DNA of 64,000 nt from NCBI RefSeq assembly GCF_030686865.1, contig NZ_JAQYUS010000002.1:372001-436000 (forward strand), in the 5' to 3' direction. Every line of letters starts with the position of its first letter. The first letter of the stretch is position 1. This document shows, piece after piece, positions 33,283 to 40,254 of the stretch. The DNA comes from Kaistella sp. SH40-3 (GTDB lineage: Bacteria; Bacteroidota; Bacteroidia; Flavobacteriales; Weeksellaceae). The translations under genes and the position numbers were made by a program. The notes below the pieces were generated by a model. That model was given only the letters and a program-made list of their open reading frames with translations. It had not been told where the DNA came from and ran no database searches.

Positions 33283-34314
33283 CTAAATGGATTTTTGAAG
33301 AAAAAAACTGAATTTAGTTCCTTCCAGATAGGTGCTTTCTACGGTGATATTTTCGTGATGCGCTTCCAATATATGCTTTACAATTGCGAGGCCTAAACCA
33401 GAGCCGCCATCATTTCTATTTCTACTCGATTCAATGCGGTAGAAACGTTCAAAAATACGCGGAAGCATTTCTGGTTTTATTCCCATTCCATTGTCCTCCA
33501 CTTCTACCAAAACTTTTTGATTCTGAATTTTAGTTTTCACAGTAACAGTGGCACTTTCCCGATTAGAATAGTAAATCGCATTTGAAATTAAATTGAGTAA
33601 AACCTGCGATATTTTTTGTTTATCTGCCTGAACAAAAATTTGGGTTGAAGTGGTTTGCAATACAATTTTAGTATTCTTTTTCTGTGCTTCTAAATCTAAG
33701 ATATCGATTAGTTCACGAATAAGATGGTTAAGGTCGAAGCGGCTTTTAGTCAAAGTAATCATGCCACTTTCAAACTGATTCATCATGTCTAAATCATTAA
33801 CTATATTCAGTAATCGTTCTACAGACTTATCAATTCTTTCTAAGTATTTATCGCGAATTGCCAGGTTTTCTACGCCACCTTCCAATAAAGTATCCACATA
33901 ACCCTGAATGGTAAAAAGAGGAGTTTTCATTTCGTGGGAAATATTACCGATGTATTCTTTCCGATAGGTTTCCATTTCTTTCATGGTATCGATTTCGGTG
34001 GTATTCTTCAAGTTCAGATCAGAAAATCTTTGACTTAATTCTTTGAAATTTAAGTCAGTTTCTTCGTCTCTAATTTCTTCCGGTAAAATGGTTGAAATTT
34101 TCTTGATCTGTCTTTTTCCATAATAATTAAAAAGAAAATCAACGACCAGATAATTGATAATCAAAAGTGCCACACTGCTGATGAGCATGGTCATAAAAAA
34201 CCGCAGGTCAGAATCAGAAAAGTAATGTTTCACCTCATCGAAAAGATAGATAAGCAAAAGCATAACTGCAGTTAGGAATAAAGAGGCAAGAAAAGTAAGG
34301 CGGTAAAATTTCAT
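33283..34314 (-). CDS. Sensor histidine kinase, PhoR-like
   Basis: A 343-residue membrane kinase: transmembrane helices at about 8-26 and 42-62 with only a short loop between, a linker, a HisKA domain with the phospho-acceptor His127 in ISHEMKTPL, and an HATPase domain with the N box (NLISNAIYYSN), DNGMGI and GGSGLGLAIV. It has no large periplasmic sensor, as in PhoR kinases that respond to phosphate through the transport complex. It follows the response-regulator gene with a 26-bp gap; both face away from a TonB receptor gene. The phosphate role is inferred from the type and the upstream repeats. Confidence 0.9.
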   Translation of the reverse strand: MKFYRLTFLASLFLTAVMLLLIYLFDEVKHYFSDSDLRFFMTMLISSVALLIINYLVVDFLFNYYGKRQIKKISTILPEEIRDEETDLNFKELSQRFSDLNLKNTTEIDTMKEMETYRKEYIGNISHEMKTPLFTIQGYVDTLLEGGVENLAIRDKYLERIDKSVERLLNIVNDLDMMNQFESGMITLTKSRFDLNHLIRELIDILDLEAQKKNTKIVLQTTSTQIFVQADKQKISQVLLNLISNAIYYSNRESATVTVKTKIQNQKVLVEVEDNGMGIKPEMLPRIFERFYRIESSRNRNDGGSGLGLAIVKHILEAHHENITVESTYLEGTKFSFFLQKSI

Positions 34315-34340: not shown

Positions 34341-35018
34341 TTACACAACTAATTTATAACCGATTCCCTTCAATGTTTGAATCATATTAATTCCCAGTTT
34401 TTCACGCAATCTACGGATATGCACATCGATGGTTCTTTCTCCAACAACGACATCATTTCCCCATACTTTTTCTAAAATTTCTTCTCGTTTAAAAACCTTT
34501 TCCGTATTGGAAGCCAGAAGATATAAAAGGTCAAATTCTTTTTTAGGCAATAAAAAATGTTGTCCACTTTTGGTGACTTTCACATTGTCTTTGTCGATAA
34601 TCAGATCACCAATTTTAAGAACTTTTGCGTCGTTGCTAACTTTTGAAGTTAACTGTAAAAGCGCATTTATTTTTGAAGTAAGCACTTTTGGTTTAATGAT
34701 TTTCACCACATAATCGTTTGCTCCGGCTTGAAAACCAGCCAACTGAGAAAACTCTTCGCTTCGGGCAGAAAGAAAAACAATGAGTGTATTTTGCAATTCT
34801 TTGATCTGGCGAAGTTCCTGACACGTTTCGATTCCATCTTTTTCCGGCATCATCACATCTAGGAGAATTAAGTCGGGAATCATTTCTTTCGCTTTCTGAA
34901 TTCCTTCATTGCCATTGGTTGCGGTGGTCACCAAATATCCTTCTTTTTCAAGATTATAAGAGAGAATTTCTAGAATATCAACCTCATCGTCGATCAAAAG
35001 AATCTTTTTCTTGTGCAT
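34341..35018 (-). CDS. OmpR/PhoB-type response regulator
   Basis: A 225-residue regulator: receiver domain (1-120) with phospho-acceptor Asp54 in LILLDVMMP and a conserved Lys in VVKIIKPK, and a winged-helix DNA-binding domain (about 130-225) with RTIDVHIRRLREKLG as the recognition helix region. First gene of the two-component operon. A TAATTTTG element (35038-35045, minus strand) lies about 20 nt upstream. Probable binding sites are the 11-bp-spaced repeats at 35113-35145. Confidence 0.92.
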   Translation of the reverse strand: MHKKKILLIDDEVDILEILSYNLEKEGYLVTTATNGNEGIQKAKEMIPDLILLDVMMPEKDGIETCQELRQIKELQNTLIVFLSARSEEFSQLAGFQAGANDYVVKIIKPKVLTSKINALLQLTSKVSNDAKVLKIGDLIIDKDNVKVTKSGQHFLLPKKEFDLLYLLASNTEKVFKREEILEKVWGNDVVVGERTIDVHIRRLREKLGINMIQTLKGIGYKLVV

Positions 35019-35112
35019 TGTTAACTTTTTATTCTTTCAAAATTAGTCAAATTAAAGGTTCCAAAACCCATCAATTTCAGAATTCATAATTAATTAATAT
35101 GACTGCTTTTTT

Positions 35113-35145
35113 GTTAAAGGAATGGTAAAGTAAAGTTAAAACTGA
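35113..35145 (+). promoter_or_regulatory. Pho-box-like array of three 11-bp direct repeats
   Basis: GTTAAAG (35113), GGTAAAG (35124) and GTTAAAA (35135) recur at exactly 11-bp steps, each followed by a 4-bp AT-rich spacer. PhoB/PhoP regulators bind 7+4 bp direct repeats of this geometry. The array ends 27 bp before a near-consensus -7 element (TTCCTTTG, 35173-35180), and no TTG -33 is present between them, as expected for an activator-dependent promoter. Confidence 0.5.
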
Positions 35146-35210
35146 CGCAACATCAAATTAAGCCTTTATTTCTTCCTTTGCCTCGAAAGAAATCTAATTA
35201 AAAAGAAGAA

Positions 35211-37805
35211 ATGAATATCAGAAAACTGAGTATTGCAGTTGTATTGCTAAATTCTGCCACGCCTTTTTTGTATGCACAAAAAACAAAAATGGATACCGTG
35301 AGTAAAGAGAGAAACATCGAAGAAATTCTCCTTAAAACTTCCTCCAACAGGAAATCAGAAAGCGCTCTCTTGGTGGATCAAAAGAAAGCCATTATCCAAA
35401 AACAATCAATGGGTTCTGAAGAAATTTCCCGAAAAGGAATTTCAAATATCGAACAGGCTTTGGTAAAAGTGACCGGAATCACCAGCGTTGAAGGACGAGG
35501 TTTATTTGTAAGAGGTTTAGAAGACCGTTATAATACCTTGCTAATTAATGGATTGGGCTCACCATCAAATAATCCTTTTCAGAAAATTATTGCGTTGAAA
35601 CAATTCCCAACTGATGTGGTTGGAAAACTGAATATTTACAAAACTTTTAATTCTAATCTATACGCGGATTTTGCGGGAGCGACTTTCGATATTGAAACTT
35701 TGACTTACGAAAAGCCATTTTCTAAAATTGAATTTGGAATAGGAGTGAATACTTTGAGTACGTTTAGAAATGATTTTAAAATTAATCCAAACGCGAATTC
35801 TATCGAAGGTTATGTGGGTTTGAATTCAAGAGACAAACAATTGCCAAATGAGATTAAAGGCTATCGACCATCGAGTTATAATTTTAATGCAAATCAGTCC
35901 CGAAATTCTTTTGGCGAAGGCTGGAATGTAGATAATATTAAATCTTTACCGAATACGAGTTTGGGTTTTACGACGGCTCAGAAATTTAAAATCGGTGAAA
36001 CTTCAAACTTAGGTTTTCTCTTTTCATTAAATCAAGGAAACCATTATGAATACAAAGATGGCGTAAAAAACCAGTTTCGTTTAAATGGAAATTCGATTGA
36101 TTATAATAACAACCTCAACCGAAAAGAATATACCTATGAAACCGAATCATCTGTACTGTTAGGTTTAGGTTTAAAAAATAAAGGGACCGCCATTAATTTA
36201 AATGGATTTTTTCTTCAAAACTCCGAGAACCTGATTCAGGATTATTTAGGATTTAGAAATGGAGAAACGAATAATCAGCAGTTCATCCGCGTAAATCAAC
36301 AGGATATTTCAAGATTTACAGATTTACAGTTAACGGCATCACAGAAAATCAACGACAGACATTTCATAAAAGCAGGCGCAAGTTGGGTAAACAATTTCTA
36401 TCAGCAACCGGACCGAAAAATCATGTACGGACAACCTGGTGAAGGAAACGATATTAATTTATCTTTTGGTGGAAACAATTTACTTCGGCAATATTTGGAC
36501 GTAAATGGTAAAAACTACTTTTCAGCATTTGCGGAATATGCGTTAAACCTTGGAGAGAAAGGTGATAAAAAAGATTATCCGTGGCAATTGGCGATTGGTT
36601 ATAATGGCTTCGCAGATATTCGAAATACGTCTTACCGATTTATTTATTCTGTTTTAAATGATCCTTCACAATCACAAGTTACGGTGGACAGAGATAATCC
36701 GCAAGCGATTTTTGATCAGTCGATTTTAAATGGAACTTACCATTATCGCGAAGGTTCAACGTCGGAATATAAAAACAATTTGTATCAGTTTGTGAATGCG
36801 GGTTACCTTAACATTAATTACAAACCCTCGGAATTGTGGGATATTTTAATTGGCGGAAGAGTTGAAAATAACATCAATATTACGCGCTACAAACCCATCA
36901 GTGTTGGTATTAATGATAATTTTGATAATATCACGAAAAACCAATATTATATTCTCCCATCTTTATCGGTTAAGCGTGCTTTGAATGAAAAATCAAACAT
37001 CCGTTTCGCAGCCAGTAAAACCATTACAAGACCGATCCTTATTGAATATATGCCGATCACTTATATCAATCCGGACAACGAAAACATCTTCGGAAATAAG
37101 GATCTGAGCAATAGTGAAAATTATAATATTGATCTGAAATATGAAATGTTCCCAAGCAATAAAGAAATGTTTGCGGTCAACCTTTTTGCAAAGAAAATTG
37201 ACAATGCAATTGAACGTTCTTACATCGCTTCCGGAAATTCAAACGGACAAACAATTACCTTTTTCAATGCTAAAACCGCAAATCTGGCTGGAGTTGAACT
37301 GGAAGGGATTTTATCTTTAAGTAGAATCAGTGAATCTTTGTCAAGATGGACTTTAGCAGCAAACACAACATTGATGTATTCTGATGTCGAAAGAAGCGCC
37401 GATCAAAACCAAGAAACCGATGTTGAAGCGAATAGAAAACGTGCGCTGCAAGGCGCAGCGCCCTGGACCGTGAACGCAGACTTGAAATACGAGTACAAAA
37501 ACAGTCAAAATTTAACCAAAACGTACTCCTTAGTATATAATGTTTCCGGTAAGAAGATTTACGGCGTTGGTTTCTCCCTACTCGATAATATTTTCGAAAT
37601 GCCTTTCCATCAACTGGATTTCGTTTACAATAATCAAATCTCTAAAAACTGGAACGTAAAACTGACCATTCAAAATTTATTGAATTCAGAATATCAACTG
37701 AAACTGGGCGACAACAGTTTGGTTCAGGTTCAGGAAAGTTCGCTGATGATGGAAAATTATAAAAAGGGAACTTCATTTAATATGACCGTTGGTTACACTT
37801 TCTAA
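35211..37805 (+). CDS. TonB-dependent outer-membrane receptor
   Basis: An 864-residue receptor with signal peptide (1-22, ending FLYAQ), a plug domain (about 55-160, with GLFVRGLEDRYNTLLINGL) and a large beta barrel ending in Phe (VGYTF). It has no N-terminal carboxypeptidase-regulatory-like or STN extension. A lipoprotein gene follows 33 bp downstream, in place of a SusD gene. The promoter region carries Pho-box-like repeats and the divergent neighbour is a PhoB-like regulator, so transport of a phosphorus compound is a reasonable hypothesis, not a demonstrated one. Confidence 0.9.
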   Translation: MNIRKLSIAVVLLNSATPFLYAQKTKMDTVSKERNIEEILLKTSSNRKSESALLVDQKKAIIQKQSMGSEEISRKGISNIEQALVKVTGITSVEGRGLFVRGLEDRYNTLLINGLGSPSNNPFQKIIALKQFPTDVVGKLNIYKTFNSNLYADFAGATFDIETLTYEKPFSKIEFGIGVNTLSTFRNDFKINPNANSIEGYVGLNSRDKQLPNEIKGYRPSSYNFNANQSRNSFGEGWNVDNIKSLPNTSLGFTTAQKFKIGETSNLGFLFSLNQGNHYEYKDGVKNQFRLNGNSIDYNNNLNRKEYTYETESSVLLGLGLKNKGTAINLNGFFLQNSENLIQDYLGFRNGETNNQQFIRVNQQDISRFTDLQLTASQKINDRHFIKAGASWVNNFYQQPDRKIMYGQPGEGNDINLSFGGNNLLRQYLDVNGKNYFSAFAEYALNLGEKGDKKDYPWQLAIGYNGFADIRNTSYRFIYSVLNDPSQSQVTVDRDNPQAIFDQSILNGTYHYREGSTSEYKNNLYQFVNAGYLNINYKPSELWDILIGGRVENNINITRYKPISVGINDNFDNITKNQYYILPSLSVKRALNEKSNIRFAASKTITRPILIEYMPITYINPDNENIFGNKDLSNSENYNIDLKYEMFPSNKEMFAVNLFAKKIDNAIERSYIASGNSNGQTITFFNAKTANLAGVELEGILSLSRISESLSRWTLAANTTLMYSDVERSADQNQETDVEANRKRALQGAAPWTVNADLKYEYKNSQNLTKTYSLVYNVSGKKIYGVGFSLLDNIFEMPFHQLDFVYNNQISKNWNVKLTIQNLLNSEYQLKLGDNSLVQVQESSLMMENYKKGTSFNMTVGYTF

Positions 37806-37838: not shown

Positions 37839-39062
37839 ATGAAAAAAAACATTTTAACTTTAGTATCGCTGGCCTTGGTTTTATCGGTCACCTCTTGTAC
37901 GGTAGACATTCGTGAAGATAATGACATTCCAACAAACACAGGCGGAAACCAACAAACCACAGGAAATGTAATGGACGGAACCGGAACTTTATCTGGTGAA
38001 ATCTCAAAAGATCTTTTGATTAAAAAAGGAAATTACACGCTGAAAGGAATTGTTAAAGTTGGTTCAGGAGCAACGCTTACGATTGAACCGGGCGCAACAT
38101 TTACCGCAACCACAAGCGATGTAAGCGGATTGGTCATTTTAAAAGGTGCAAAAATTAATGCGGTTGGAACTGCTGATTTACCCATCGTTTTCACCTCTGA
38201 TAACAAAACGCCGGGAGATTGGGGCGGTGTAACTTTGTATGGTGACGCACCAATTAAAGCCTTAAACGGCGCAACAACTGCACTTTCTGAAGATGGTAAC
38301 AATCAATATTACGGTGGCTCTGATGCGAATTCAAACTCCGGAACGATGAAATTCGTAAGAGTGGAATATGGCGGACGTAAAATTGGCGACGGAACTTCGG
38401 AAACGAACTCGATGACTTTTTATGCAGTTGGTGCCGGAACGACTTTAGAAAACTTAGTCGCGTACAAAGGAACCGATGACGGTTACGAATTTTTCGGTGG
38501 AACGGTAAGCGCTAAAAATCTGATTTCTTACGGAAATTACGATGATGCTTTTGACTGGCAGGATTCCTGGAGCGGACAAAACAACTCCAACTGGTTTGCT
38601 TACCAAACGGGAATTGGTAATTTCGGAATGGAAATCGAAGCCTCTTCAAACGCAGATAATATCGCACCAAAAGTGAGCAATATCACTTTGATGAGAGCCG
38701 CAGGAACTTTACCTGAAGTTTCAGGTTCCGCAGAAGTTTCAGCCATTCAGTTTAAAAAACAGGGAACCGGAATTTTCTCCAATGTCTATATCGACGGCTA
38801 CAAAAATACGGGCGGGAAAAATGCATTTGCAGTATTAATCCAGGATTTAGCCACGGAAACGAGTCAATTGGCAACCGGTAAAATTAAAGTTGAACCGCTA
38901 TTTACAACAGCCAACAACGATAATCAATTAAAATTTGGATACGGCTTTACCTCAACAAATCCATTAACCTACACAAATGCTGCAACGGTGACCAAAGTTT
39001 CTATGGTTGGCGGCGCTTGGGCAACGGTAAACGGCCAAAACTTACTTGCGCCACTTCAATAA
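37839..39062 (+). CDS. Beta-helix lipoprotein paired with the TonB receptor
   Basis: A 407-residue lipoprotein with lipobox TSC at Cys20, followed by acidic residues (IREDND) and a Gly/Thr/Asn linker that could favour surface exposure. The body is a repetitive beta-rich fold: GATLTIEPGATF and repeated GG/YGG turns such as VEYGG and EFFGG suggest a right-handed beta helix. It is probably the surface partner of the TonB receptor, binding or presenting the substrate. No enzymatic motif is visible. Transcription ends at a perfect terminator. Confidence 0.82.
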   Translation: MKKNILTLVSLALVLSVTSCTVDIREDNDIPTNTGGNQQTTGNVMDGTGTLSGEISKDLLIKKGNYTLKGIVKVGSGATLTIEPGATFTATTSDVSGLVILKGAKINAVGTADLPIVFTSDNKTPGDWGGVTLYGDAPIKALNGATTALSEDGNNQYYGGSDANSNSGTMKFVRVEYGGRKIGDGTSETNSMTFYAVGAGTTLENLVAYKGTDDGYEFFGGTVSAKNLISYGNYDDAFDWQDSWSGQNNSNWFAYQTGIGNFGMEIEASSNADNIAPKVSNITLMRAAGTLPEVSGSAEVSAIQFKKQGTGIFSNVYIDGYKNTGGKNAFAVLIQDLATETSQLATGKIKVEPLFTTANNDNQLKFGYGFTSTNPLTYTNAATVTKVSMVGGAWATVNGQNLLAPLQ

Positions 39063-39619: not shown

Positions 39620-40144
39620 TTATTGTTTCTCAAAACTCTTATAATGATTCTTCGTTAACCAAACTTCTCCATTTTTGGTGAAAACGATTCGGTCGGCATT
39701 TCGGTTTCCGCAGTTGTAATTGACGTCGGCTTCGAAATATTTATTTCCGGCTGGTAGTGTTTTTTCCCGATTGCTGAAGTTATCGCCGCCAATTGCTCTT
39801 CCGGGAAGAACATCACAAAGGTTTCCTTTTGAGGCAACCCAACCCTGTTTGCGTGCTTCACCTTTGGTGATATAATAATCCGGAAGTCGGTGATTGGATT
39901 TCACGTAATTAATGACGGTATCTTCGTTCGTGAGTTCATCAATATTTCCGGAGAAATCTGATTCTTTTGAAGTTTTATTTTCTTTAAAGTTTTCATTATT
40001 ATTTTCATTAATGGAAACCTCCGAATTGATGACCTCTTTATTTTTCTTTTCGATGCGGTAATTGTTGATCAGATACATCGCCAGAAATGCCGTGAGCAAT
40101 CCGATGATGAAAAATAAGAAGAGTTTTATGTTTTGTTTGTTCAT
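39620..40144 (-). CDS. Membrane-anchored barnase-like ribonuclease
   Basis: A 174-residue guanyl-specific RNase homologue. An N-terminal transmembrane segment (7-25) and a polar Asn/Glu-rich linker (40-70) precede the barnase domain (72-174). HRLPDYYITKGEARKQGWVASKGNL is close to barnase, and the catalytic triad Glu138, Arg152 and His167 keeps the barnase spacing (14 and 15 residues). Two extra Cys (110, 145) could form a disulfide. The enzyme is probably exported and anchored by its N-terminus. ATG at 40144 chosen; the upstream TTG lies within a promoter-like TTTG. Barstar is encoded downstream. Confidence 0.9.
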   Translation of the reverse strand: MNKQNIKLFLFFIIGLLTAFLAMYLINNYRIEKKNKEVINSEVSINENNNENFKENKTSKESDFSGNIDELTNEDTVINYVKSNHRLPDYYITKGEARKQGWVASKGNLCDVLPGRAIGGDNFSNREKTLPAGNKYFEADVNYNCGNRNADRIVFTKNGEVWLTKNHYKSFEKQ

Positions 40145-40254
40145 ATGATTCAAATGTTACTTCTTGTTTTAGATAGCGTTCCTCCGGAACGCGACTTTCT
40201 TTCTTATTAATTGCTACAGAGATAAAGTTCCTCCGGAACACTCTTAATCTCCAA

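Follow-up and report, generated by a model that had tools for sequence, protein, structure and literature searches.

The first question raised by this locus is whether a short run of direct repeats, between genes for a PhoB-like regulator and a divergent TonB-dependent receptor, could be an operator that places the receptor under phosphate control. The repeats are part of a 64,000-nucleotide stretch of DNA, referred to here as the window, which is contained in a host genome of 3.25 Mb (33 contigs). The kinase and regulator genes, on the reverse strand, diverge from the receptor and lipoprotein genes on the forward strand. Note that the Bacteroidota -7 consensus is TAnnTTTG. The features of the locus are as follows.

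33283..34314, reverse strand: PhoR/PnpS-like sensor histidine kinase (HisKA and HATPase_c in Pfam; PnpS model 242.5 bits and PhoR model 230.7 bits, both below cut-off)
34341..35018, reverse strand: PhoB-like response regulator, OmpR/PhoB family (Pfam Response_reg and Trans_reg_C; the best NCBIfam model is PhoB)
35038..35045, reverse strand: TAATTTTG, putative -7-like element of the regulator gene (from motif position and the general consensus)
35083..35099, no strand assigned: two-repeat box TTCATA-N5-TTAATA, probably of the regulator's own promoter (from conservation)
35113..35145, forward strand: core array of three 11-bp units, GTTAAAGGAAT, GGTAAAGTAAA and GTTAAAACTGA (from sequence and conservation)
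35146..35156, forward strand: fourth, degenerate repeat CGCAACATCAA (word CGCAACA), in register, at the -33 place (AA invariant in 19 sequences)
35157..35167, forward strand: possible fifth repeat ATTAAGCCTTT (word ATTAAGC), in register, 15 bp before the -7 element
35173..35180, forward strand: TTCCTTTG, -7-like promoter element of the TonB operon (from conserved spacing and the general consensus)
35211..37805, forward strand: TonB-dependent receptor, 864 aa (Pfam Plug; TIGR01782 at 130 bits, below the cut-off of 310)
37839..39062, forward strand: FII-like surface lipoprotein, 407 aa (from identity to the F. johnsoniae FII protein)

Among the matches listed, the closest named relative of the regulator is from Kaistella treverensis (91% identical). 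The lipoprotein (37839-39062) has no match in Pfam or NCBIfam. Behind its gene, a small ORF on the reverse strand (39620-40153) begins with a signal-like sequence and matches a ribonuclease domain in Pfam (PF00545).

The triple repeat within the window

The first-pass annotation placed GTTAAAG, GGTAAAG and GTTAAAA at positions 35113, 35124 and 35135, spaced by 11 bp, and these positions are correct. The 27-bp gap between array and -7 element also holds, when the array is counted as 33 bp (35113-35145). As read from the sequence, TTG is indeed absent at the -33 position. The extent given for the array was too narrow; the three repeats are present, as part of a group of four to five, with a separate pair upstream.

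We counted comparable repeats across the window. The strict word GKTAAAR, three times at 11 bp, occurs once when both strands are searched, and this word was chosen post hoc, after the repeats had been seen. Triples of 7-mers with at least this degree of likeness, at 11-bp spacing, were counted at 4 positions, which represent 3 distinct places. Dinucleotide shuffles of the window (20 in total) gave a mean of 2.85 triples with the same likeness, and a maximum of 7. Similarly, 9 of 12 other periods (8 to 20) yielded more than 4 such triples in the window. Taken alone, the bare triple repeat is no rarer than chance within the window.

Conservation of the array in Weeksellaceae-type relatives

At least 80 regulator loci were gathered. 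Counts were made on 52 sequences, being the window plus 51 loci at 77-91% identity, and 29 more distant regulator loci were set aside. A TonB gene like that of the window is beside the regulator in 45 of the 52 sequences (window included) and is absent from 7. We scanned DNA within 200 bp of the regulator for three TTAA cores, and required that at least 11 of 12 letters matched. At period 11, such arrays were detected in 40 of the 45 sequences with the TonB gene, and 22 were perfect. For any other period between 6 and 20, at most 5 of 45 sequences matched and none did so perfectly. Shuffled intergenic regions reached the same threshold in 1.85 of 45 cases, on average. A comparable match was found in one (L044) of the 7 loci with no TonB gene. 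Note that the TTAA core was picked after viewing the sequences; control comes from the other periods and from the shuffles.

The first-pass reading hinged on conservation of the repeats upstream of counterpart TonB genes. Of the 45 sequences, 39 have them at the homologous position (the match in L031 is elsewhere). Measured from the first TTAA, repeats are at +11 and +22, with a degenerate +33 repeat that often reads CTAAAC or CGCAACA. The NNNNTTTG element (four bases and then TTTG) follows at +59 in 13 sequences, and at +60 in 26, accounting for all 39. Many of the genomes are close relatives, and we also compared a non-redundant set of 19 sequences, with no more than 37 of 44 letters identical. 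In this set 11 columns are invariant, every one in a repeat core. The AA of the fourth repeat (alignment columns 37-38) is invariant in all 19. A full TTAA at the place of the fifth repeat was found in only 3 of 39 sequences and, hence, this repeat is doubtful. The array occurs both where the receptor shares 50% identity or more with that of the window (19 loci) and where it shares less than 35% (19 loci).

The remaining 6 of the 45 sequences are of the C. indologenes type, and have a longer intergenic region with their own in-register array farther out. The best four in this run of 11-bp repeats match at 14 of 16 letters, and the run ends approximately 15 bp before TTATTTTG. The distance between the possible fifth repeat and the -7 element, in the window, roughly matches this end point.

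While the bare triple is at chance level, its conservation is specific to the 11-bp period and, hence, we conclude that the array is real. The earlier description is therefore upheld as a conserved arrangement: tandem repeats of PhoB-class type, with an 11-bp period and no TTG in the -33 region, precede a TonB/lipoprotein operon that diverges from the gene for a PhoB-like regulator.

A two-repeat box on the regulator's side

The separate pair of repeats has the conserved form TTCAYA-N5-TTAAYA. This box matches at 11 or more of 12 positions in 45 of the 52 sequences, including 6 of the 7 without the TonB gene. Shuffles reach the same level in 0.95 of 52. The box is missing from L054 and the six C. 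indologenes-type loci. Its start is 31 bp from the first TTAA in 36 of 39 sequences, 30 bp in 2, and 32 bp in 1. Since the box is kept even in loci with no TonB gene, we assign it to the regulator's own promoter, to which it probably belongs. The PhoP box of Bacillus subtilis has TTAACA-type repeats. The box described here closely resembles it, where the comparison is between words only, and across a different phylum and promoter.

In Epilithonimonas-type loci L045, L047, L049 and L051 the TonB gene is gone and the box is intact (12 of 12 positions), equivalent to a natural deletion of the array. In similar loci, L138 to L140, a different gene (MEEEKKSLNFIEQ...) takes the place of the TonB gene.

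A counterpart array in Flavobacterium

We turned to a second genus, read as Flavobacterium. Of 398 genomes drawn from it, 394 encode the regulator (E-values up to 1e-60). Four of the Flavobacterium loci (L143, L144, L145 and L153) were seen to have a divergent receptor-like gene. The set used for counting (n=41) comprised F. johnsoniae and 40 further regions upstream of the regulator, whatever the gene opposite. Of the 41 regions, 23 have three TWACA repeats at period 11 with at least 14 of 15 letters matched, and 34 have at least 13. With other periods from 7 to 16, no region reached 14 letters, and at most 3 reached 13. In 36 of 41 regions the -7 element starts 36 bp from the first repeat and 14 bp from the third; in 2 more it is shifted by whole repeats. 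Hence, position, period, and relation to the promoter are common to both families, with a half-site of TAACA in one and TTAA in the other. The suggestion that GTTAAAG would be a general flavobacterial word is not sustained, with a core of TTAA in Weeksellaceae and TAACA in Flavobacterium. Since the core word differs between the families, no one 33-bp matrix represents flavobacteria as a whole.

These data bear on whether the repeats simply arose by chance in AT-rich DNA between genes. The triple repeat alone, at shuffle level in the window, would fit this explanation. Set against it is period-specific conservation, with fixed spacing, in both Weeksellaceae-type loci and Flavobacterium. We reject a chance origin, which we consider very improbable.

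Arrays and phosphate-responsive genes in F. johnsoniae

A large response to phosphate depletion has been described in Flavobacterium (see the relevant part of PMC8115612). The same part of the paper describes the F. johnsoniae PhoBR operon (PUSIV), whose genes for regulator, kinase, divergent TonB receptor, and lipoprotein (FII) are ordered as they are here. On phosphate depletion, the log2 changes are +8.0 for the divergent receptor, +9.9 for FII, and +3.1 for PhoB (Table 1 of PMC8115612). The term 'pho box' is absent from the text of that paper. For our comparisons, genome G253 was taken as F. johnsoniae UW101, because its genes are ordered as in Fjoh_0541 to Fjoh_0549. Comparing the window with PUSIV, the regulators are 55% identical and the lipoproteins (FII) 37%, with the receptors only 29% identical. 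The window lipoprotein and an FIII-like protein are 43% identical over 201 aa. PUSIV differs from the locus studied here in having TAACA-type repeats, nearer to the -7 element.

To compare promoters, 366 upstream regions were scored, in 708 kb around published low-phosphate genes, using a half-site matrix from other Flavobacterium species. The top two three-repeat scores were for the receptor (Fjoh_0545) and the FIII-like gene, both low-phosphate genes. In the FIII-like promoter, the last TAACA is 14 bp before TAATTTTG. The third-best score was for OprP (Fjoh_0542), preceded by a good three-repeat array at L170:2870-2913 on the reverse strand; according to the part of PMC8115612 that covers this gene, OprP is not induced by phosphate depletion. 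Among the 366 regions, a good array is absent before FI, Fjoh_3857, PusC2, and the phytase receptor. Three of these four genes sit in sigma/FecR clusters, and we infer that a sigma/FecR relay operates for those three.

Low-phosphate regions (19) were then compared with the other 347. At period 11, enrichment has a p-value of 6.5e-5 for two repeats and 1.2e-3 for three. At period 13 the equivalent values are 0.003 and 0.0012, and two repeats at period 14 give 0.017. Since period 13 also gives a p-value of 0.003, the enrichment must result partly from base composition or region length. Note that several of the 19 low-phosphate regions are for inner genes of one operon, and that regions shorter than 80 bp, including that of PusC1, were dropped. 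The PUSII sigma and PUSI FecR genes, which are outside Table 1, were added to the 19 as cluster members, and Fjoh_2225, 3414, 4577, 4721 and 4723, which were not located, were left out. We identified Fjoh_4889 from its interpolated position and from paralogy. For PhoX, which was recognised from its place next to MauG, the candidate protein gave no match in Pfam.

Searches of the whole F. johnsoniae genome gave fewer clear sites. Model R2 produced 19 matches, with only the known site strong (3.3e-6); its training set held close relatives of that site. We inspected 12 of the other 18 matches. Perfect TWAYA, three times, matched 5 places, compared with 8 for a backwards control, and so is not enriched genome-wide. 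Three of these 5 are outside genes; two of the three precede low-phosphate genes, and one of those two is of the type from which the pattern was derived. Models R1 and R2 allow no flexibility, and arrays that vary escape them; the FIII-like promoter, for example, went undetected with R2.

Which regulator, and which signal?

We next consider what might bind the array. The regulator fell short of both PhoB equivalog models, scoring 205.5 with TIGR02154 (cut-off 296.2) and 190.8 with NF053854 (cut-off 270). The PhoB protein of F. johnsoniae, scoring 215.4 and 204.3, also misses both and, hence, the NCBIfam PhoB cut-off is not decisive here. In a PDB search, the best 60 of 66 matches were OmpR-family regulators, other response regulators, or receiver domains only. 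The host genome encodes two other full-length OmpR-type regulators, 33% and 30% identical to that of the locus. The first is RprY-like (G000:C1:620982-621650), with RprY as its best NCBIfam model at 301 bits, below the cut-off of 370.

One possibility is that another OmpR-type regulator, chiefly the RprY-like protein, binds the array, with the PhoB-like gene a co-target or bystander. In support of this, direct repeats at 11 bp also serve ArcA (in the part of PMC3798270 that describes them). Furthermore, Riemerella 'PhoP' binds a TTTAACA motif (PMC9603813, from its binding data), and the interval of the EMSA site, at -156 to -121, has TGTTAAA before the RprXY-like kinase, with none before the PhoB-like orthologue. 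The RprY-like proteins of Riemerella and the host genome are 89% identical. Against this, the Riemerella papers used another strain, and the relevant parts of PMC9603813 and PMC5399024 could concern either regulator. Moreover, the array adjoins the PhoB-like gene in 39 loci from several genera, and a related array is beside the Flavobacterium orthologue. Since the array is constantly linked to the local regulator gene, we favour the local regulator, and binding by another family member seems unlikely.

The Riemerella data raise a separate matter. In Riemerella anatipestifer (L056, L123, L124 and L127) the published 'PhoPR' may be an RprXY-like system. We rejected the DAP-seq results for Riemerella 'PhoP', in the part of the literature concerned, as proof of regulator identity; gene order and identities are ambiguous, and the EMSA position leans towards RprXY.

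A further possibility is that the local regulator does bind the array and activate the operon, with an envelope, metal, or redox signal, rather than phosphate, as its cue in this organism. Consistent with this, the host genome has no PhoU, its only PstS-family lipoprotein gene is behind a TonB-like gene, and the regulator is below the PhoB cut-offs. Yet the F. johnsoniae orthologue, whose operon is phosphate-responsive, misses the same cut-offs. In addition, according to the relevant part of PMC8115612, PstSABC is lacking in plant-associated Bacteroidetes, and the lipoprotein family is induced at low phosphate in F. johnsoniae. We regard a signal other than phosphate as slightly less probable, again, than binding by another regulator. 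The preferred reading, which we consider likely from the sequence comparisons, is that the array is an operator for the PhoB-type regulator, which would activate a low-phosphate TonB/lipoprotein operon.

Other sites and phosphate genes in the host genome

With model R1, 66 matches were obtained in the host genome, at E-values up to 10. Only the array site is strong (2.2e-6), with the next at 0.009. We inspected the next 11 of the 65 other matches, and 6 are inside genes. One site, L097 (G000:C1:807822-807861, R1 E-value 0.055), has four TTAA/TTTA words in register, spaced by 11 bp. It is between genes read as tilS-like and an OmpA-like lipoprotein, and may be a second target.

The search for PhoU (PF01895) gave no match in the host genome, and a match in 13 of 14 control genomes. 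There is one gene for a PstS-family (PBP_like_2) lipoprotein, at 84 bits and above the family cut-off; a second PstS-family match is inside a LysR-type regulator. The PstS-family gene, L089 (G000:C1:820791-821498), is directly behind a TonB-like gene. A plasmid search found nothing.

The first-pass annotation had proposed that the motif be sought upstream of pstS, phoX and phytase genes. There is no array in front of the host's single PstS-family gene or good array in front of the F. johnsoniae phytase receptor gene, and the score for the F. johnsoniae PhoX-like gene is modest.

Comparison with known systems

The PHO box of E. coli PhoB consists of 7+4 bp direct repeats, and the consensus varies by species (in the sections of PMC4415409 that describe it). 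The array studied here is alike in having 11-bp tandem direct repeats, with a PhoB-class regulator, and in lying where the upstream promoter element would be, at a fixed distance from the core promoter. It differs in having a TTAA/TAACA core rather than CTGTCAT, a Bacteroidota -7 element, and four to five repeats. The claim that the half-site is distinct from that of E. coli is thus accurate, with CTGTCAT not matched. Since the consensus is species-dependent (PMC4415409, same sections), CTGTCAT is not family-defining. The predicted operator would be a further case of the PhoB-type operators already known.

The 11-bp spacing had also been taken as a mark of Pho regulation. ArcA boxes comprise between two and five direct repeats, with their centres 11 bp apart (PMC3798270, in the part on binding sites). 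We therefore reject the spacing as diagnostic, or as proof, of 'Pho', since it is common to ArcA and other regulators of the OmpR/PhoB family. Note that ArcA is a redox regulator, whereas the neighbouring regulator here is PhoB-like.

The operon has a likeness in Caulobacter. FI, FII and FIII are related to a low-phosphate Caulobacter lipoprotein (PMC8115612, in the passage on these proteins), taken to be the ElpS of PMC2996285. In the relevant part of the latter, ElpS is a phosphate-starvation surface lipoprotein, elpS homologues co-occur with a TonB receptor gene, and the Caulobacter TonB receptor Cc0171 is expressed in both media. By description, ElpS and Cc0171 can be likened to the lipoprotein and TonB receptor pair of the window.

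Discussion

Our data suggest how the locus might operate. Under phosphate limitation, the PhoR-like kinase would phosphorylate the divergently encoded regulator. Dimers of the regulator would then bind, head to tail, on four to five 11-bp repeats along one helix face. The fourth repeat would take up the position at which a -33 element is missing, and RNA polymerase would be recruited to the -7 element, TTCCTTTG; the geometry is that expected of class-II activation. Transcription of the TonB receptor and FII-type surface lipoprotein genes would follow. The separate two-repeat box, starting 30-32 bp before the first TTAA, would serve the regulator's own promoter.

More tentatively, PhoU-less Bacteroidota could possess a rewired phosphate switch. 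The half-site of a PhoB-class regulator would have drifted to TTAA/TAACA, and a control region of two tiers, with a two-repeat autoregulatory box at a fixed offset from an activating array of four to five repeats, would form a threshold switch for an outer-membrane TonB/ElpS-like module. The kinase would sense a signal other than Pst flux. We think this possible, although clearly less likely than not.

A bioinformatic analysis has reported putative Pho boxes upstream of plcP-cluster genes in marine heterotrophs, with a flavobacterium among the set of organisms covered (in the relevant part of PMC4796936). Our full-text literature search, with most matches judged by title, found no paper that defines a Pho operator for this group. 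If our reading is true, an operator with fixed geometry, in two families, would separate direct targets from genes controlled by a sigma/FecR relay, and phosphate sensing in the absence of PhoU would become testable.
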